From contig JAEFBC010000029.1 in assembly GCA_016292155.1 (NCBI GenBank), forward strand, positions 1 to 34,162: DNA of 34,162 bases, written 5' to 3'. The DNA is from Saccharofermentans sp. (lineage in GTDB: Bacteria; Bacillota; Clostridia; Saccharofermentanales; Saccharofermentanaceae). The number at the start of each line of letters is the position of its first letter. The first letter of the stretch is position 1. A program made the position numbers and the translations under genes. The notes beneath the pieces were generated by a model. The model made no database searches. It saw nothing but the letters and a program-made list of their open reading frames with translations, and had not been told where the DNA came from. Below are positions 657 through 29,202 of the stretch, one piece after another.

Positions 657-1022
657 TCAGGCAGGAGACACCACCTTTGTCGCAATAACAGGGATACCGG
701 TGCCTGCGCAGTCTTCGATAAGCACGTCGCCGATAGCTATGGGAGCCTTACAGGAAGCTTTATTTATGGCTTCCATAACCTCGAAAATCCGCCCCTTCGG
801 AACCGGTTCTTTAGTCTTACAGGACACGCGGTCAACTGTGCCGCCAGTAACTTTAATGGTAGTCGTAACAGTCCTTACGGGCGATCTGACCTCGTTTGTT
901 GCATAAACAAAGCCTCTTTTGCAGGTATTTCCTTCGATAACGATAATATCGTCACCTTCCATCGTGACGGTTATACGGCATCCCATAGGACAGTTGATAC
1001 ATGTAAGTTCACGCTTTTCCAT
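657..1022 (-). CDS. DUF1667 family protein (Cys-rich, accompanies GlpA-like oxidoreductases)
   Basis: MEKRELTCINCPMGCRITV...GNTCKRG; conserved CxxCPxGC motif; adjacent to two FAD oxidoreductases. Confidence 0.85.
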   Translation of the reverse strand: MEKRELTCINCPMGCRITVTMEGDDIIVIEGNTCKRGFVYATNEVRSPVRTVTTTIKVTGGTVDRVSCKTKEPVPKGRIFEVMEAINKASCKAPIAIGDVLIEDCAGTGIPVIATKVVSPA

Positions 1023-1023
1023 A

Positions 1024-2277
1024 TCAGTTCTCCGTAATCTCGATTAAGATCTCAGAAGGGGCACCCGACAGTTCCTCTTTCTTTAAGATCACCTGCTCCA
1101 TCTCACCCGGCGTAATGATCTGCTTTCTTCTGTGAAGCTTGGTCTCTCCGTCGAAAAGAACGTTTATATAACTGTCCTTATAGACATTTCCTGATCTGAA
1201 TCTTATGACCAGGTCATCTTCTAATTCATTTAAGCGGACAAAGCTTGGAACGGTATATCTGACGCCGTTTCCGTTCTTTATATTGATTACAGGGCCTTCT
1301 TCAGCTTTATTGGCCTTAACAAATCTTGCTGCACTTCTTCCCGCCCTGCCTGACTCTTCAGAAACATAATCAACAAGGTCATGTACGTGAAGTACATTGC
1401 CGCAGGCAAAGACTCCAGGTATCGAAGTCTCAAAGGACTCATTAACAACAGGTCCGTTTGTAGCTGGATTTATCTTGACACCAGCAGATCTGGATAATTC
1501 ATTCTCAGGTATAAGTCCGCATGACAGGAGCAGCGTATCGCATGCGATCTCCTGCTCTGTACCAGGGACAGGCTTGGACTTCTCGTCAACTTCAGCGATC
1601 ACTACCGAAGTCACCCTCTCCTTGCCTTTGATATCTATAACTGTGTGGGACAGCAGGAGCGGGATGTCAAAGTCATCAAGACACTGTACGATATTACGCT
1701 TAAGGCCTCCTGAATAAGGCATAAGCTCACATACAGCCTTTACCTTTGCGCCTTCTAATGTCATGCGGCGTGCCATTATAAGTCCGATGTCACCGGAACC
1801 TAAGATAACGACTTCCTTGCCGGGCATAAATCCTTCAATATTTACAAGGCGCTGAGCCGTTCCTGCTGTGAAAACTCCGGCAGGTCTTAGTCCCGGTATA
1901 TTAAGAGCACCTCTGGGGCGTTCGCGGCAGCCCATGCAGAGTACAACAGCTCCGCAGTCTACCGTAAATACGCCTTCTTTGCTGTTGACTGCAGTAACAA
2001 CTGAAGATGCGACATCAAGAACCATAGTATCAAGCATATAGCGGATTCCAAGGCCGTCTAACTGCTCTTCGAATCTTGCTGCGTATTCAGGTCCTGTCAG
2101 CTCTTCATTAAAGGTATGAAGGCCAAAACCGTTATGAATGCACTGGTTTAATATACCGCCGAGCTCCCTGTCACGCTCGAGGATAAGGATATTGAGATTA
2201 CTGTCTTCCTTTGCTGCGGCTATAGCAGCTGCAAGGCCTGCAGGACCGCCGCCGACGATTACGATATCAGCCTTCAT
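1024..2277 (-). CDS. FAD/NAD(P)-dependent pyridine nucleotide-disulfide oxidoreductase
   Basis: N-terminal Rossmann GGGPAGLAAAIAA, internal GSGDIGLIMARR, GVFACGN motif; 11-nt overlap with the upstream gene. Confidence 0.88.
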   Translation of the reverse strand: MKADIVIVGGGPAGLAAAIAAAKEDSNLNILILERDRELGGILNQCIHNGFGLHTFNEELTGPEYAARFEEQLDGLGIRYMLDTMVLDVASSVVTAVNSKEGVFTVDCGAVVLCMGCRERPRGALNIPGLRPAGVFTAGTAQRLVNIEGFMPGKEVVILGSGDIGLIMARRMTLEGAKVKAVCELMPYSGGLKRNIVQCLDDFDIPLLLSHTVIDIKGKERVTSVVIAEVDEKSKPVPGTEQEIACDTLLLSCGLIPENELSRSAGVKINPATNGPVVNESFETSIPGVFACGNVLHVHDLVDYVSEESGRAGRSAARFVKANKAEEGPVINIKNGNGVRYTVPSFVRLNELEDDLVIRFRSGNVYKDSYINVLFDGETKLHRRKQIITPGEMEQVILKKEELSGAPSEILIEITEN

Positions 2278-3727
2278 CTTTGGTCCTCCCGGTAACTATC
2301 TTAGAATTTCCGCCGCTCTTGGTAATGGAATCAAGAGCAACACCCAGTTCCCTGCTCAAGATATCCATAACTCTCGGAGAGCAGAAACCGCCCTGGCATC
2401 TGCCCATTCCGGCTCTCGTCCTTCGCTTAACTCCATCAAGAGACTTAGCACCCAAAGGACGCCTTATAGCATCAATGATCTCGCCTTCGGTAATGGTCTC
2501 ACAACGGCAGATGATACGGCCGTATTCTGGATACTCCTTTATAAGTTTTTCACGCTCTTCAGATGGTAATTCAACCGGTTTGACAACATCTTTGCAGATG
2601 CCGTTCCAGGTATCCTTTTGCTTTAAGGCCAACTTTTCAGATACAAGCGAAGCCATATATTCACCGATAGCAGGACATGCCGTAAGTCCTGGTGATTCAA
2701 TACCCACGCAATCAAAGAATCCGGGGCATCCGTCTGCTTCTTCGAGGATAAATTCGCCGCCGTCTTCATGAGCTCTAAGTCCTGAAAAGCCCGTAATCAC
2801 CTGCTTTAGCTGCAATCCCTTAACGTTCTTTACAGCGCCTTCCTGCACTTTTACAAGGCCTTCTGCAGTTACAGGCGCTTCATCCTTGCTCTCTATATCG
2901 ACCGCAGTGGGACCGACTATCGTATTGCCGTGGACTGTGGGGGTTACGAGTATGCCCTTACCCATTTTCGTAGGCTGGGGGAAGATAACATGCTTCACAA
3001 AGCCATCCAGAGAACGGTCGAGCAGCATGTAGTCGCCTCTTCTTGGCGTTATATGGAGCTTCTTATCTGATACGAGATTATGTATATCATCTGCGTGGCA
3101 CCCTGCCGCATTGATTACGGCGCGTGCAATGTAAACTGCATCACCGGTATCCACTTCCCATACACCGCCTGAAGATCTTATGCCGGTTACCTTTGTATCG
3201 AACTTGAATTCAACGCCGTTCTGGGCAGCACATTCAGCCAGAGCGATATTAAGTCTGAAAGGACAGATAACGCCTGCAGTGGGAGCAAATAGCGCGCAGA
3301 CAACGTCATCTGAGATGTTAGGCTCAATCGCCTTTACTTCTCCGGCGGATAAAATCTTCATGCCCGGGACTTCGTTGGTGATGCCCCTTGCGTAGAGATC
3401 ATCAATGCCTTCACGGTTTGCTTCATCAGTACATACGACAAGAGAACCTATCTGCTTAAAAGGGATATCCAGTTCCTGGCAAAGACCCGGCATGAGTTCA
3501 TTGCCGCGGATGTTCATTTTCGCTTTGAGAGTACCGGGTTTTGCATCGTAACCCGCATGAACTATGCCGCTGTTAGCTTTGGAAGTGCCGCAGCAGACAT
3601 CCTCGTCCTTCTCGATAACGAGCACAGAACAGTCAAAGCGCGAGAGCTCTCTTGCTACCGCACATCCTGTTACGCCTGCTCCGATGATGATCACGTCAAA
3701 TGAATTGTCCATAAGCCTTTGCACCAA
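2267..3727 (-). CDS. GlpA/LhgO-like FAD-dependent oxidoreductase with C-terminal BFD-like [2Fe-2S] domain
   Basis: DVIIIGAGVTGCAVARELSRFD (DAO fold) and C-terminal CRCETITEGEI...RCQGGFCSPRV. Start may instead be ATG at 3712. Confidence 0.85.
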   Translation of the reverse strand: MVQRLMDNSFDVIIIGAGVTGCAVARELSRFDCSVLVIEKDEDVCCGTSKANSGIVHAGYDAKPGTLKAKMNIRGNELMPGLCQELDIPFKQIGSLVVCTDEANREGIDDLYARGITNEVPGMKILSAGEVKAIEPNISDDVVCALFAPTAGVICPFRLNIALAECAAQNGVEFKFDTKVTGIRSSGGVWEVDTGDAVYIARAVINAAGCHADDIHNLVSDKKLHITPRRGDYMLLDRSLDGFVKHVIFPQPTKMGKGILVTPTVHGNTIVGPTAVDIESKDEAPVTAEGLVKVQEGAVKNVKGLQLKQVITGFSGLRAHEDGGEFILEEADGCPGFFDCVGIESPGLTACPAIGEYMASLVSEKLALKQKDTWNGICKDVVKPVELPSEEREKLIKEYPEYGRIICRCETITEGEIIDAIRRPLGAKSLDGVKRRTRAGMGRCQGGFCSPRVMDILSRELGVALDSITKSGGNSKIVTGRTKDEG

Positions 3728-5292: not shown

Positions 5293-6588
5293 TTATATCT
5301 CGTCAATAAGAGTGATGATCTCCTTGATGGACATAAGTCTGTCATCGACTTCTTTTGCTCTGTGATACTTAAGGATATCCTCAGCTGTCTTCTGCATTGC
5401 AGGGAAAGCTGATCTTGTAAGCTGGTTGGCATAGATAACGATGTTTACGCCGTGAGCTGCAAGTTCTTCTTCAGTGATCGTATTGAATGAAGAAGGAACA
5501 ACAACGATAGGTGTTGTCTTATCGAATGCTCTGAACTTGTCGCAGAACTCAAGGATCTCAGCAGGATCCTTCTTGCGGCTGTGGATCATGATGCCGTCAG
5601 CACCAGCCTCAACGAATGCCTTTGCTCTTGCAAGAGCATCTTCCATGCCCTGCTCGAGGATAAGGCTCTCGATACGTGCGATGATCATGAAGTCATCAGT
5701 GAGCTGTGCTCTCTTGCCTGCTGCGATCTTGGCGCTCATCTCTTCGATGGTTGCCTGTGTCTGCTTAACTTCAGTACCGAACAGTGAGTTCTTCTTTAAG
5801 CCCTTCTTATCTTCGATGATTACAGCAGAAACACCCATTCTCTCAAGGGAACGTACTGTATAAACGAAGTGCTCTGTAAGTCCGCCTGTATCACCGTCGA
5901 AGATGATAGGCTTTGTCGTAACTTCCATGATATCGTCGATAGTCCTGAATCTGGATGTCATATCAACGAGCTCAATATCAGGCTTGCCCTTTGCTGTGGA
6001 ATCGCAAAGAGATGAGATCCACATAGCATCGAACTGCTCGAGCTTGCCTTCATGCTCTACTACGGTCTTCTCAACGATAAGACCTGTAAGACCGCTGTGA
6101 GCCTCCATTGTCTTAACGATAGGTGTCATTTTAATAAGCTGTCTTAAGCGCTTACGGCGGTATTCAGGCATGGCGAGCTTTTCTCTAAGCTGCATGTCGA
6201 TCTTCTTTACCTTCTCGTTATATGTGTAAGGAACGTCGATGAGTTCACCACCGTATTCCTTAAGGAGAGATTCAACATTTTCGCGGATGGCGCTCTCAGG
6301 ACCTGTCTTCCAGTTATCGCCATGGATTACATAGTCAGGCTTGATCTCAGCGATGACGTCGTTATACATGAAATCTTTCTGTACAACTACCTCATCAACG
6401 CCGTCAAGTTCCTTGTAAAGCTTGATCCTGTCCTCAAGAGAGATCGTGGGGAATCTGTTGTATTTGATGAGAGCTTCATCTGTAAGAGCGCCTACTACAA
6501 CGCGGCCGTGCTCTTTTGCCTTCTCAATGATGTTCAGATGTCCGTCATGGATAACATCAGTACAGAAACAGGTATAAACAGTCTTCAT
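5293..6588 (-). CDS. pepM: Cytidylyltransferase-phosphoenolpyruvate mutase fusion
   Basis: N-terminal HDGH nucleotidyltransferase motif and HGDNWKTGPESAIR; C-terminal PEP mutase with EDKKGLKKNS (diagnostic EDKX5NS) and FDGDTGG. Confidence 0.93.
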   Translation of the reverse strand: MKTVYTCFCTDVIHDGHLNIIEKAKEHGRVVVGALTDEALIKYNRFPTISLEDRIKLYKELDGVDEVVVQKDFMYNDVIAEIKPDYVIHGDNWKTGPESAIRENVESLLKEYGGELIDVPYTYNEKVKKIDMQLREKLAMPEYRRKRLRQLIKMTPIVKTMEAHSGLTGLIVEKTVVEHEGKLEQFDAMWISSLCDSTAKGKPDIELVDMTSRFRTIDDIMEVTTKPIIFDGDTGGLTEHFVYTVRSLERMGVSAVIIEDKKGLKKNSLFGTEVKQTQATIEEMSAKIAAGKRAQLTDDFMIIARIESLILEQGMEDALARAKAFVEAGADGIMIHSRKKDPAEILEFCDKFRAFDKTTPIVVVPSSFNTITEEELAAHGVNIVIYANQLTRSAFPAMQKTAEDILKYHRAKEVDDRLMSIKEIITLIDEI

Positions 6589-6591
6589 GGT

Positions 6592-7731
6592 TCAATTCTC
6601 CTTATAAATTACGGGTATCTGAATGTTGTATGTCTTAAGTGCTTCTTCGAAAACTGCGAAAAAGTCATTTATATCCTTCACATCAATTGCACCGAGAGCG
6701 CAAAGTCTGAAAGTGTTTGTGGAAGAGATCTTGCCGGGATAGATAGTAAATCCTCTCTCGTAGCAATAATCGTGAACCTTCTCAAAGCTCCAGTTGGGAT
6801 CATCGGGATAAATCGCAGTGCTTACAAGGCCTGTGCGGTCTTCAGGCTTGATGACCTGCTTAAAGCCAAGCTTATCAAGGCCTTCATTGATAGCGTTAAA
6901 GACTCTTGTATGGCGTGCCCACTTGCCTTCCTCGCCTTCAGCCCAGTATTCCTTAATGCCCTGGAGTGCTGCATAGATCGTCTGTACCGGAGGTGTAAAG
7001 TGCATCTCGCCGGTCTTCTCAAAGCAGTCGTACTGAAGGAAAAGATTGCAGTAGTAACTTCTCTTGGGATAATCCTTGGACTTCTCGATGATGGCTCTGT
7101 TGCCTACCACAAATGACAGGCCTGTCATTGCCATAAGGCCTTTCTGTGCTGAAGCCATGCAGAAATCGATATTGTCTTCTTCGATATTGATAGGACGCAT
7201 TGCATAAGTGCTTGTAGTATCAACAGTAAAGATAGCACCATACTTATGAGCAAGCGCGCCGATCTCTCTGATAGGATTTAAAATGCCTGTACCGGTCTCG
7301 TTATGAGTCGTGTGAACGAGCTTGATATCAGGGTTATTCTTCAAAGTCTCTTCAACAACTGCGAGATCAGGCTTCTGATCTACAGGGAATTTGAGATTGA
7401 TATGAGGAAGTCCGTAGTATTCGCAGATCTCGGCAGCTCTTGTGCTGTATGCGCCGTTGTTTACGACGAGGACTTTGCCGCCTGCAGGAAGCAATGAATT
7501 GATGCAGACATCGATATTGATCGTGCCTGAACCGCAGAAGAGCACTGAAGTATATTTCTCAAGATCACCGTGAACGATCCTTACGAGATCTTCACGAAGT
7601 CCCTTCATAAGTGAAGCGAATTCTTTTTCTCTGGGGCAGATATCAGGTACGACCTGAGCCATCTTTACCGTGTCAGTCGTTGTGGACGGACCGGGATTTA
7701 AGAGAACATTCCGTTTAACAATCGGATCCAT
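6592..7731 (-). CDS. phnW: 2-aminoethylphosphonate:pyruvate transaminase-like PLP enzyme
   Basis: NVLLNPGPSTTTDTVKMAQVVPDICPREKEF, SAQKG PLP-lysine region; adjacent to pepM; GGGAGG RBS. Confidence 0.87.
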   Translation of the reverse strand: MDPIVKRNVLLNPGPSTTTDTVKMAQVVPDICPREKEFASLMKGLREDLVRIVHGDLEKYTSVLFCGSGTINIDVCINSLLPAGGKVLVVNNGAYSTRAAEICEYYGLPHINLKFPVDQKPDLAVVEETLKNNPDIKLVHTTHNETGTGILNPIREIGALAHKYGAIFTVDTTSTYAMRPINIEEDNIDFCMASAQKGLMAMTGLSFVVGNRAIIEKSKDYPKRSYYCNLFLQYDCFEKTGEMHFTPPVQTIYAALQGIKEYWAEGEEGKWARHTRVFNAINEGLDKLGFKQVIKPEDRTGLVSTAIYPDDPNWSFEKVHDYCYERGFTIYPGKISSTNTFRLCALGAIDVKDINDFFAVFEEALKTYNIQIPVIYKEN

Positions 7732-7756
7732 TAAAAATGCCTCCCGCGTTCAATTT

Positions 7757-7775
7757 TTGAGTATAACGAACTCAA
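7757..7775. promoter_or_regulatory. Perfect 6-bp-arm dyad (TTGAGT-N7-ACTCAA), putative operator
   Basis: TTGAGTATAACGAACTCAA sits just downstream of the candidate -10 of the phnW promoter. Confidence 0.45.
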
Positions 7776-7802
7776 TATTAACACAACAGAAGGCAAAAAC
7801 AA
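7775..7802 (-). promoter_or_regulatory. Candidate promoter for phnW-pepM
   Basis: Minus strand TTGTTT-N16-TAATAT in the 138-bp intergenic gap. Confidence 0.4.
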
Positions 7803-7821
7803 TATTTATTTTATTATTTGC

Positions 7822-7857
7822 GTTCATTTTTCCATAATATTGCCTGAGAAAATGAAC
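7822..7857. repeat. Inverted repeat GTTCATTTT-N18-AAAATGAAC
   Basis: Perfect 9-bp arms (7822-7830, 7849-7857) in the intergenic region. Confidence 0.6.
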
Positions 7858-7869
7858 TAATCGGCCAGA

Positions 7870-8766
7870 TCAGACGTCGTAACTCTTATCTATGGCCTTC
7901 AATTCCTTGAAAGAATCGATCTCAACGATGTCCTCATCGAAGCATTCCTTGACCGCAACTTTATAGTTGTCCTTGCGGTAAACGAGGGGAACTTGCTCCC
8001 AGTATCTCTCACGTCCGCCGGGTGTCTGGAATACATCATCGATATCCTGTGAGAGCTTGTGACCGTCTGCTTCATTCCAATAAGAGATGCCAACCATCTG
8101 CCAGCAGTCGAGGCCTCCCACCTTCTCTTCCGTGATGATGCCGTCCTTTACGGTAAAGCACCAGTCGTCAGTACGTTCCTTCTTGATGGCAAGGAAATCG
8201 GAAGAATAATGATATTTCCTGATTATCTCCGGATTGCTGCAGACAAGGTCAGCTTCCAGAACATAAGCATTCGAGAGCAGATATCTTGCAACAAGAGCAC
8301 TCGAGATATTATTTGCATCGTTGTAAGAAGGGTTCTCAAGGAACTTGATCATCGGATATTTATATAAGAGCTGGTCGAACTGCTCGGCAAGATATCCTCT
8401 AACGATATAGATCTCTTCGATTCCTGCAGCAAGGCAAGCATCGATCAGAGTATCAATGATCCTCTTTCCGTTGACTCTTACGAGCGGCTTGGGAGTATTT
8501 AGTGTTATCGGAACCATTCTGGAACCAAAGCCGGCAGCAATGAAGACTGCCCTCTTTGCCCTGTAAGGCTCAAGAGCTTCAAGGCCTTCTTTTGTGATCT
8601 TGCATTTCTCTATGTAGCCGAGATCCGTAAGTTCCTTAACGGTCTTGTTTACGGTGCCTAATGAGTAGCCTGTGTGCTTTTCGAGATCGCGCTGGGAAAA
8701 AGACTTCTCCTCAGTAGCCAGTGTCTCTAAGATATCAAATTGCTTTCTTGTAAGTTCTGCAGCCAT
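7870..8766 (-). CDS. Winged helix-turn-helix domain fused to LicC/PntC-like nucleotidyltransferase
   Basis: N-terminal LTRKQFDILETLATEEKSFSQRDLEKHTGYSLGTVNKTVKELTDLGYI (wHTH), then AVFIAAGFGSRMVPITLNTPKPLVRVNG (NTP transferase signature). Confidence 0.88.
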   Translation of the reverse strand: MAAELTRKQFDILETLATEEKSFSQRDLEKHTGYSLGTVNKTVKELTDLGYIEKCKITKEGLEALEPYRAKRAVFIAAGFGSRMVPITLNTPKPLVRVNGKRIIDTLIDACLAAGIEEIYIVRGYLAEQFDQLLYKYPMIKFLENPSYNDANNISSALVARYLLSNAYVLEADLVCSNPEIIRKYHYSSDFLAIKKERTDDWCFTVKDGIITEEKVGGLDCWQMVGISYWNEADGHKLSQDIDDVFQTPGGRERYWEQVPLVYRKDNYKVAVKECFDEDIVEIDSFKELKAIDKSYDV

Positions 8767-11064
8767 TTATGCCTCCACTTCTGAATTGCCAAGTATCTTA
8801 TGGTACAAATAATCGATCGATTCCTTATCGAGTGCTATCGGATGATTCTTAAGCCTGTCCACATTTACAGAGGATGCGAGAAGCATGTACTCCGCTTCAT
8901 TCGCAGAAGGCGTGGACATATTAAGTCTCTTATATAATTCATCAAGATAAGCGCAGACCAGCTTAGGGTCATTAAATCCGAAAGTCTCGGCAATATAATT
9001 CATTACTGAAGCAAGATACTCCGGACCTCTCGGATCAATGCATTTATCCATGTTATCAAGCATCCACGGGAACAGTGACTTAACGCAGAGCATTGCAGCA
9101 TGGCCGTGTGCAAGGCCATAGAGCGATGTGATCTTATAGCACATAGCGTGTCCCGCTGTTGTCTGTGTGATATTTATAGCCTTTCCGGCCTTATATGCGG
9201 CATTGAGCATCTCAAGGTTGGATACCTTGTCATTGGCAAGATAACCGTCGAGATTATCCATTATGAGGTGGATAGCCTCGCTCGCATATGCCTTGCTCTC
9301 ATCGGTGCTGTTAACTGACCAGATGGACTCTATAGAATGGCAGAGCGCGTCGAACATCGTGCATTTTCTCTGATAAAGAGGCAGAGTCTTAAGAAGACTG
9401 CTGTCCATAAGAACAGTCTTAGGGATTATGCTTTCATGGTTAATCGACTGCTTCGCTCCGTTATAGTAGATAACCGCAAATCTGGTAGCTTCTGATCCTG
9501 TTCCTGCTGTAGTCGGAACTGCAAGGAACGGAATATCATTGGCAACGATATCCTGCTTAAGGAAATTCTTCTCAGGATCCATGTTGGAGAAGAGCTTAAT
9601 GCACTTAGCAACATCCATTGCAGATCCGCCGCCGATCGCGATTATCGCCTGGCATTTCTCCCTGTTGAATACGTTGACTCCTTCTACGACTGATTCATAT
9701 AAAGGATTAGGCGAGAAATCGCTGAAAGGTACTATCTTAACACCAAGTCTGGCCTCGACATTATCAAGATATCTCTTGATGGGCATTACATTAATAGAAG
9801 GGCCGCAGACGAGCAAAATAGCGTTCGCGCCTGAAGATCTGATCCAGTCATCAACCTTGGCGTAGTTATTCTCAGCCGTAATTATTCCTTCAACGGACTT
9901 CCAGATATCGCGTTCGATCTCGCTGTTATCGGGATCTGTGATCTCACCGCTGAAAGTATTCTCGATGGATGCATATTTCGCATCGGCAGCGTACGGGAAT
10001 TCAACGAGTTTGCCGCCATATTCAGCAAGAAGGCTAATTACCTCTTCCCTTATGGGCTTCTGGTAACCAGTCTTCCAGTTATCGCCGTGAACAACGATAT
10101 CAGGCTTATATTTCCTGATATTGTCCGCATAGGACAATGTATCCTGGTCTACTACCCTGTATACGCCTGCAATGCTTGCCACAAGAGCTTTACGCTCGGA
10201 TCTAGGAACGATCGGAGCACGCTTGTAGCTTGCGACTACCTCATCTGAGAGAACTCCAACAGTAAGTTTTCCAAGCTTTGCGGCTTTCTTGATGATGGCT
10301 ATATGTCCGCCGTGGATAACGTTGGTCGAGAAAGACATGTAAACAGATCTGTTCTCAACTTCCTTAAGCCTTGCAGATACAACTGCGAGGTCCTCTGGGT
10401 TGTCAATCTCTGAGCAGAGCCTGTCCTGAACATCAAATGCCTTGATATTGCATGCGCCGCCCAGCTCATTCAGAGCATTCTCGGCATAGCACTTGCGGTT
10501 GTCGCTCTCACAGAACTCAACGATCTTATCGAGCCAGAGCTTCCAGTCCTCGCGGTTAAGCTTATACAGAGCCTGTGCTTCCATCGCATCGTCGAAGAAA
10601 TCAATGCCGACCTTCTGAACGAAGCCGTCCTTGATAACAGCCTTAAAGTCCTTCTCAGGAAGCGGGATCGTGGAAGATACCTTCATGCAGCTCGTCGGGC
10701 AGTTCAATATGTCTTCTAGTACTGAGGCTTCAAAAACCAGGTCTCCATGCATCAGTACGATATCGTCATCCAAGTATTCTCTCGCGCAGTAAATGCTGTA
10801 AATATAATTGGTTTCAGCGTAAAGCGGGTTATTTACAAAGGTGAAATTCATCGGAAGGCCCAACGAATGGCAGTAATCCACCAGGATCTTATCGAAATAG
10901 CCCGTCGTCATGACGACTTCGGTAACTCCGTTGCTTTCAAGAAGCTTTAATTGTCTTGAAAGGATAGTATCTGTTGCAGATACTTCCGTCATGCACTTGG
11001 GATGCTCGGATGTAAGAACTCCCATCCTGTGTCCCAATCCGGAATTCAAGATCAAAGCTTTCAC
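8767..11064 (-). CDS. Three-domain fusion: NTP transferase + cytidylyltransferase + iron-containing alcohol dehydrogenase (phosphonoacetaldehyde reductase-like)
   Basis: KALILNSGLGHRMGVLTSEHPKCM; FSTNVIHGGH...IVVHGDNWKTGYQKPIREE; IIAIGGGSAMDVAK...PTTAGTGSEATRFAV...GLAHGHAAML. GTG start at 11064 follows a GGAGGG RBS; the track start at 11079 is a TTG within the RBS. Confidence 0.88.
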   Translation of the reverse strand: MKALILNSGLGHRMGVLTSEHPKCMTEVSATDTILSRQLKLLESNGVTEVVMTTGYFDKILVDYCHSLGLPMNFTFVNNPLYAETNYIYSIYCAREYLDDDIVLMHGDLVFEASVLEDILNCPTSCMKVSSTIPLPEKDFKAVIKDGFVQKVGIDFFDDAMEAQALYKLNREDWKLWLDKIVEFCESDNRKCYAENALNELGGACNIKAFDVQDRLCSEIDNPEDLAVVSARLKEVENRSVYMSFSTNVIHGGHIAIIKKAAKLGKLTVGVLSDEVVASYKRAPIVPRSERKALVASIAGVYRVVDQDTLSYADNIRKYKPDIVVHGDNWKTGYQKPIREEVISLLAEYGGKLVEFPYAADAKYASIENTFSGEITDPDNSEIERDIWKSVEGIITAENNYAKVDDWIRSSGANAILLVCGPSINVMPIKRYLDNVEARLGVKIVPFSDFSPNPLYESVVEGVNVFNREKCQAIIAIGGGSAMDVAKCIKLFSNMDPEKNFLKQDIVANDIPFLAVPTTAGTGSEATRFAVIYYNGAKQSINHESIIPKTVLMDSSLLKTLPLYQRKCTMFDALCHSIESIWSVNSTDESKAYASEAIHLIMDNLDGYLANDKVSNLEMLNAAYKAGKAINITQTTAGHAMCYKITSLYGLAHGHAAMLCVKSLFPWMLDNMDKCIDPRGPEYLASVMNYIAETFGFNDPKLVCAYLDELYKRLNMSTPSANEAEYMLLASSVNVDRLKNHPIALDKESIDYLYHKILGNSEVEA

Positions 11065-11093
11065 ACTATTTCCCTCCAAAATCTATCAACAAA

Positions 11094-11114
11094 AAGTGAA
11101 TACATTATACACTT
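11094..11114. promoter_or_regulatory. 21-bp imperfect dyad over the -10 region, putative operator
   Basis: AAGTGAATA-CAT-TATACACTT (8/9 matched arm positions). Confidence 0.4.
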
Positions 11115-11132
11115 AGAAAGGGAAAATCTTAA
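11104..11132 (-). promoter_or_regulatory. Candidate promoter of the phosphonate module
   Basis: Minus strand TTAAGA-N17-TATAAT upstream of the GTG start and GGAGGG RBS. Confidence 0.55.
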
Positions 11133-11156
11133 AAAAACTTCATTTAACCGCACGGA

Positions 11157-28686: not shown

Positions 28687-29202
28687 CTATTTCTGCGGCG
28701 GGAGCTTATCTATGATCTCCAGTCCCACCTTGATCTCTCTCGGGCCTCCCATGAAATCAGCCCTGATTATCGCGATCCTCTTATGACGGTTGACCTTAAG
28801 GATGCATCCTTCAAGTCCGTGCAAAGGACCGTATTTGATAATGATCTTGTCCCCTTCGATGACTCCTACTGACTCTTGTGCAATATAGTCATCGCCAATA
28901 AGTATTCTTAAAAACTTCTCTTCATCAGGTGATATCGAACTATACCCGTAGCCTGTTCCCAGGATCTTCGTAAAAGCATTGATCTTTTTTAAGCGCAGAT
29001 AAAAACTGTCTACGTCATTTGTCTGAAAGAAAATGTATCCCGGGAATAGCGGCATAGTTACCTTAGTCCACTCGCCCTTGATACTTTTTCTCCGTTCAAA
29101 CAAAGGAACGAAGATCTCTTCACCATCTTCTTTGACTTCGAGCTTCAATCTTTCTGCCAGTTTAAGCTCGTCGCCAGTGCGCACTTGAACTACGTACCAC
29201 AT
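28687..29202 (-). CDS. loaP: LoaP-like specialised NusG paralogue (antiterminator)
   Basis: MWYVVQVRTGDELKLAERL (NGN), VTMPLFPGYIFFQT, KOW region GDKIIIKYGPLHGLEGCILKVNRHKRIAIIRADFMGGPREIKVGLEII; position in polysaccharide operon. Confidence 0.87.
   Translation of the reverse strand: MWYVVQVRTGDELKLAERLKLEVKEDGEEIFVPLFERRKSIKGEWTKVTMPLFPGYIFFQTNDVDSFYLRLKKINAFTKILGTGYGYSSISPDEEKFLRILIGDDYIAQESVGVIEGDKIIIKYGPLHGLEGCILKVNRHKRIAIIRADFMGGPREIKVGLEIIDKLPPQK

Follow-up and report, generated by a model that had tools for sequence, protein, structure and literature searches.

A winged helix-turn-helix-cytidylyltransferase fusion as a candidate regulator of its own aminoethylphosphonate supply

The gene at positions 7870..8766 (minus strand) of the window, that is, the whole stretch of 34,162 nucleotides analysed here from the 2.4-Mb assembly of a rumen bacterium (Saccharofermentans sp.), raises the question of whether one polypeptide could serve both as a metabolic enzyme and as a DNA-binding regulator of its own module, as the original prediction proposed. 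We interpret its product as a PntC-type CTP:2-aminoethylphosphonate (AEP) cytidylyltransferase that is also a transcriptional regulator of the AEP-supply operon, a reading to which we assign a probability of roughly 0.78 in the absence of binding, expression or enzyme data. It rests on features that can be read from sequence, namely the fusion and its conservation, the operator and its linkage to the winged helix-turn-helix (wHTH), and intact catalytic and AEP-type residues.

The open reading frame encodes 298 residues and starts with ATG, directly 5' of which lies a GGAGG ribosome-binding site. Residues 1-70 (8557..8766, minus strand) form the wHTH domain, recognized by the Pfam models MarR_2 (residues 5-55; 40.7 bits, E = 2.6e-10, cut-off 27) and HTH_24, likewise above its cut-off. 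Residues 71-298 (7873..8556, minus strand) form a LicC/PntC-like cytidylyltransferase domain, with matches to pneumococcal LicC (residues 72-293; PDB 1jyk, E = 1e-26) and PntC (residues 71-178; PDB 6pd1, E = 5e-12). The wHTH extends over residues 5-68, and no linker precedes the LicC/PntC-type nucleotidyltransferase (NTase) at residues 71-296. In the AlphaFold model (pLDDT 91), helices at residues 7-19, 25-32 and 36-48, the last being the recognition helix (LGTVNKTVKELTD; 8623..8661, minus strand), are followed by a short wing at approximately 52-57, and helix 59-68 passes directly into NTase strand beta-1 at residue 72. Foldseek placed LicC and PntC-AEPT at the top ranks (TMt 0.88 for the LicC fold). 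Since the Pfam, PDB, AlphaFold and Foldseek results agree, the predicted arrangement of some 70 MarR-like N-terminal residues directly before a LicC/PntC-like NTase is confirmed. MarR proper has additional dimerisation helices at both termini; these are absent from the model, and because the single helix 59-68 runs into the NTase, we do not class the protein as a MarR regulator proper.

Conservation was analysed in orthologues of at least 60% identity from Lachnospiraceae, Oscillospiraceae and Negativicutes, and 97 of the 99 distinct sequences carry an intact HTH. In all 97, residues Q25, R26, S35, G37 and N40 are invariant, S35 immediately preceding the recognition helix; K or R occupies position 41 in 94 sequences and position 44 in 88, and the remaining exposed wHTH positions vary freely. 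The protein satisfies the criterion for a wHTH DNA-binding protein, since it has an HTH, a wing and a recognition helix that is both basic and conserved. An HTH devoid of a basic recognition helix had been named as an outcome that would refute the prediction; given these residues, no such refutation arises.

A scan of GTDB species genomes returned at least 568 stretches encoding a relative; the best 80 of these all carry the fusion, at 73-95% identity, in Lachnospiraceae, Oscillospiraceae, the Negativicute Schwartzia succinivorans and other hosts. The full fusion occurs in about 45 of 115 genomes of the source bacterium's own family. A class-wide sample searched at E 1e-60 yielded further orthologues in just 9 of 388 genomes, and the family is therefore patchy outside its home groups.

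The NTP transferase fold, the GxGxR and PK motifs and the Asp/Glu metal ligands are all present in the fusion, and D173, E282, GxGxR and PKP are invariant among relatives. D173 and E282 align with metal-site residues of LicC (E282 corresponds to LicC E216). E171 aligns with E104 of Tde-PntC, a residue located near the AEP amine and occupied by Asp in LicC (PMC6697681), and E257 falls at the position of LicC D192 (1jyk alignment, with the numbering offset derived by hand), such that an AEP-type Glu is found at both the LicC D105 and D192 positions. Judged from these residues the active site looks intact, and catalysis is inferred. E171 and E257 favour AEP as the substrate, CMP transfer itself being an inference without enzyme data; we caution that this assignment is based on the neighbouring genes and two residues.

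Two minus-strand genes follow the fusion gene. The first encodes a PhnW-type AEP transaminase (6592..7731; TIGR03301, above cut-off), the second a PEP mutase (Ppm; 5293..6588; TIGR02320, above cut-off) with a fused cytidylyltransferase-like domain. On its other side the gene abuts another minus-strand gene (8767..11079), whose 770-residue product has NTP transferase, CTP_transf_like and Fe-ADH domain matches and in front of which no operator was found. With two cytidylyl-transfer domains and an Fe-alcohol dehydrogenase, this protein could belong to a hydroxyethylphosphonate route. Elsewhere in the window, a NusG paralogue (28687-29202) close to the head of a polysaccharide cluster is a candidate for processive antitermination, and a trio of FAD oxidoreductase (DAO+BFD), Pyr_redox and DUF1667 genes (657-3727) resembles an anaerobic glycerol-3-phosphate dehydrogenase-type set.

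Over approximately 100 distinct loci, the gene behind the fusion is mostly PhnW (with Ppm and Ppd), a phnS2/T2/U2-like AEP ABC importer, or a permease. Three AEP supplies thus adjoin the fusion gene, namely PhnW-Ppm-Ppd synthesis, an AEP-type ABC importer and an amino-acid-type permease, the latter occurring together with PhnW-Ppm-Ppd in some loci (L087, L089). By predicted gene function, AEP supply is the common theme of these contexts and the wHTH-NTase their constant element. The AA_permease_2 directly behind the wHTH-NTase gene (L113:6910-8400; cluster 5 genes, 22 loci) is a candidate AEP permease. At L067 (9100-12600), a second, divergent cluster of NT-CyT, Fe-ADH and Ppm genes shares an operator-bearing intergenic region with the wHTH-NTase gene.

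In order to find a candidate operator we performed a word-enrichment search, started free of any motif, on the 200 bp 5' of the fusion gene in 95 non-redundant loci. TGAACA occurred in 66 of the 95 promoters, versus 12.8 expected. Half-sites paired as GTTCA...TGAAC lie 30 bp (24 pairs) or 31 bp (17 pairs) apart, start to start, and every other inverted spacing accounts for at most 2 pairs. Exact GTTCA-N25/26-TGAAC was present in 38/95 promoters and in 5/281 control promoters drawn from the same loci (P = 1e-20), and with up to one mismatch the inverted repeat was present in 62/95 versus 15/281 (P = 4e-32), in all three contexts (synthesis, importer and permease). No recognisable site was found nearby in 24 of the 95 loci, of which 4 have an altered or lost helix and some lie inside another operon; an exact repeat at -3487 of L050, apparently within the phnW coding sequence, was left out of the counts. 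The spacers between the arms vary in sequence among loci, and the complementarity of bases flanking the arms is not above chance, so that the arms look like protein-binding half-sites rather than an RNA stem. A TATAAT-like hexamer starts 12 nt before GTTCA in 7 of 38 sites, a merely suggestive -10 geometry. Direct half-site repeats were also seen 5' of the wHTH-NTase gene, at 20-21 bp (13 pairs) and 81 bp (10 pairs); these extra spacings suggest, on sequence grounds, several bound molecules or a loop. Genome-wide repeat counts, which are pattern searches, gave approximately one match per genome away from the operon in several genomes, near the control rate, and for this reason no larger regulon is claimed.

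Because the fusion gene lies on the minus strand, the 7732-7869 interval follows it and precedes phnW in the direction of transcription. Here we find O1 (7822..7857), a predicted operator without binding data, which is an exact GTTCA-N26-TGAAC of 36 bp and the sole exact repeat in the window (0.01 expected); the stricter pattern GTTCAW-N23/24-WTGAAC occurs once in the 2.4-Mb assembly. O1 starts about 15 nt past the end of the fusion gene and is kept in 7/7 members of the window clade. A putative second site, O2 (7748..7782), close to the phnW ribosome-binding site, comprises an exact half-site (7748-7752) and a partner TTAAC with one mismatch (7778-7782), the latter less well matched in the rest of the clade. 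All 7 clade members have a TGAAC close to the start of phnW, and between it and O1 the alignment of 7 relatives places a tentative phnW promoter (7775..7802, minus strand), with a weak -35 TTGTTT (7797-7802), 16 nt and a -10 TAATAT (7775-7780), which a consensus promoter scanner did not flag. The claim that the gene lies just upstream of a promoter region with dyads thus holds in transcription order, and the dyad is real, at O1. Of the two regions that had been suggested as binding probes, 7750-7860 contains the conserved operator, whereas 11090-11135 carries no such repeat.

The position of the site follows the AEP-supply genes. Fusion genes preceded at no more than 70 bp by a co-directional gene were taken as operon-internal; the site is found in front of 0/12 of these and of 62/83 of the others. 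In 8 of the 12 operon-internal loci (window clade, L098, L106, L133) it lies behind the fusion gene, ahead of phnW or the importer, and in L096, where phnW-ppm-ppd precede the fusion gene, it is ahead of phnW. In Schwartzia succinivorans DSM 10502 (L093), too, an exact repeat separates the fusion gene from phnW. As far as the genomic comparison goes, when gene order changes the site stays with the AEP-supply promoter.

The site is also linked to the wHTH. In L048, L049 and L223 a shorter stretch stands in place of the helix 2-helix 3 segment, AlphaFold predicts a single weak helix and no HTH, Pfam finds none in L048, and all three loci lack the inverted repeat. In another family, L198 and L219 have independently lost the HTH and kept PhnW and Ppm, and no repeat was found in 13 kb. 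These losses represent only two events, which limits the weight of the absent site. Orthologues with a changed helix (L051, L052, L199, L201, L202) are likewise without the site, and loci of HTH-less NTases show just 1 repeat in 258 kb; since Ppm is present in only 3/21 of the latter, they control for HTH-less NTases and not for HTH-less AEP synthesis.

The same TGAAC half-sites accompany paralogues of about 600 residues and ~30% identity (L053-L059, L205-L218), which share the wHTH-NTase core and differ by their own C-terminal choline-kinase-like domain. Exact repeats at 29-31 bp occur in 12/22 of these wHTH-LicC-choline-kinase loci; in L056 and L058 the site lies ahead of a permease preceding the gene, and L058 is a Lic-like cluster with EamA (LicB-like) and NCS1-type transporters. 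Some half-sites in this group overlap the start codon (ATGAAC). An 804-residue wHTH-NTase with an SHMT-like PLP domain and a diverged helix (L060:8104-10518) was also observed, with no operator found. The proposal of a metabolic enzyme that binds DNA and regulates its own module is therefore supported by genomics, the operator being tied to the wHTH in three contexts and in paralogues and absent in two lineages without the wHTH; that the fusion protein itself binds the operator is inferred.

We propose that the NTase domain produces CMP-AEP for the decoration of surface polymers and that the wHTH reads TGAAC half-sites. Two wHTHs, presumably from a dimer or two cooperating molecules, would contact inverted half-sites 30-31 bp apart, i.e. 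three helical turns, and thus sit on the same side of the double helix. The site lies at or close to the promoter that drives AEP synthesis or import (phnW-ppm in the window). As the wHTH gene is first in the AEP-supply operon in most relatives, the protein would also control itself. Most likely it represses the AEP-supply promoter, and AEP or CMP-AEP in the active site would alter DNA binding, so that supply would shut down once activated AEP accumulates; both repression and ligand dependence are inferred. Given that a common site serves both the making and the import of AEP, the simplest scheme is feedback by AEP or CMP-AEP. The product as co-repressor stands at nearly even odds, and the substrate as inducer is doubtful.

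Alternatively, GTTCA-N25/26-TGAAC could be the site of another, trans-acting protein that regulates surface-decoration genes, and the wHTH could be a structural or protein-interaction module. Direct binding data are indeed lacking for the wHTH, and further copies of the pattern exist away from these genes in several genomes, in numbers near the control rate. However, the wHTH-NTase is what AEP-synthesis, AEP-import, permease and choline loci bearing the half-sites have in common, loci with a lost HTH or a changed helix lack the site, as do HTH-less NTase loci, and contact-type wHTH residues are invariant; we regard a separate regulator as unlikely. One could also envisage that the repeat acts as RNA, as a hairpin or riboswitch of the 5' UTR, and not as a DNA operator, since it lies between the likely transcription start and the start codon in many loci. 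Nevertheless, its arms are invariant 5-mers whose flanks pair no better than expected by chance, direct half-site repeats at 20-21 bp exist as well, O1 is upstream of the putative -35, and Rfam gave no match of note over 7600-8000. On the arm-complementarity and Rfam tests we rejected this possibility, which we consider barely credible.

The two remaining explanations each remove one of the proposed functions. Were the wHTH a relic, or a dimerisation or stability domain of a protein that is only an enzyme, lineages such as L048/L049/L223 and L219, which lost the HTH yet keep the operon, would be readily understood; indeed, their persistence indicates that catalysis is probably independent of the HTH. 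The invariance of Q25, R26, S35, G37 and N40 on an otherwise variable wHTH surface, together with operator co-occurrence, makes this highly improbable. Conversely, the NTase could be a degenerate sensor and the fusion purely a transcription factor whose ligand domain resembles an enzyme, a possibility for which ROK-type regulators offer a precedent and which the second NTase of the window, in the 770-residue protein, would allow by catalysing the reaction. We find it very unlikely, however, since D173, E282, GxGxR and PKP are invariant and the 770-residue protein is absent beside the operon in most relatives.

Phase variation aside, control of phosphonate and phosphocholine surface decoration is largely open, and here this role seems to fall to the activating enzyme itself, through a short operator and in many genomes from rumen and gut. 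Dual function of the fusion would make a cytidylyltransferase one of the few enzymes that also act as regulators and would offer a genetic handle on AEP surface chemistry, and the operator could point to new AEP transporters. If an enzyme dimer does span the three turns of the operator, this would be an uncommon geometry for reading DNA. More tentatively, and at slightly less than an even chance, wHTH-fused cytidylyltransferases may constitute an uncharacterised enzyme-regulator family of gut and rumen Firmicutes that shares TGAAC, gauges CMP-AEP or CDP-choline pools and sets zwitterionic surface decoration.

Our search, which left subscription literature mostly outside, found no description of a wHTH-LicC/PntC fusion or its operator, nor of the wHTH-LicC-choline-kinase proteins. 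The closest enzymes, PntC/PntC-AEPT of Treponema denticola (Tde1415, PDB 6pd1/6pd2; PMC6697681) and LicC of S. pneumoniae (1jyk), share the fold, the GxGxR/PKP motifs and the metal ligands. At E171 and E257 the fusion makes the choice of PntC (Glu) and not that of LicC (Asp), and it has PhnW and Ppm as neighbours, as does PntC. Unlike the fusion, characterised PntC and LicC members carry no wHTH, and a wHTH fusion is not mentioned in the published inventory of fusions (PMC6697681). MarR-type regulators resemble the wHTH of the fusion in three helices, a wing and the MarR_2 match, whereas MarR proper has the extra dimerisation helices that the fusion lacks, and MarR operators are compact palindromes in contrast to the wider site predicted here, with half-sites 30-31 bp apart.

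NadR, RbkR and BirA are enzymes of biosynthesis or activation that carry an HTH and control the supply of their own substrate, and RbkR likewise combines a wHTH with a CTP-dependent enzyme. These proteins differ from the fusion in enzyme, pathway, helix and operator, and we do not claim common enzyme ancestry. An enzyme acting as its own regulator is thus a known principle, while this enzyme class, the pairing of helix and operator and the three-turn spacing are, as far as we could check, apparently undescribed. With enzymatic activity and ligand-dependent DNA binding both inferred, the fusion shows two defining features of enzyme-regulators of this type, namely an HTH and an enzyme in one chain and, at the promoter of the pathway it serves, a conserved operator.
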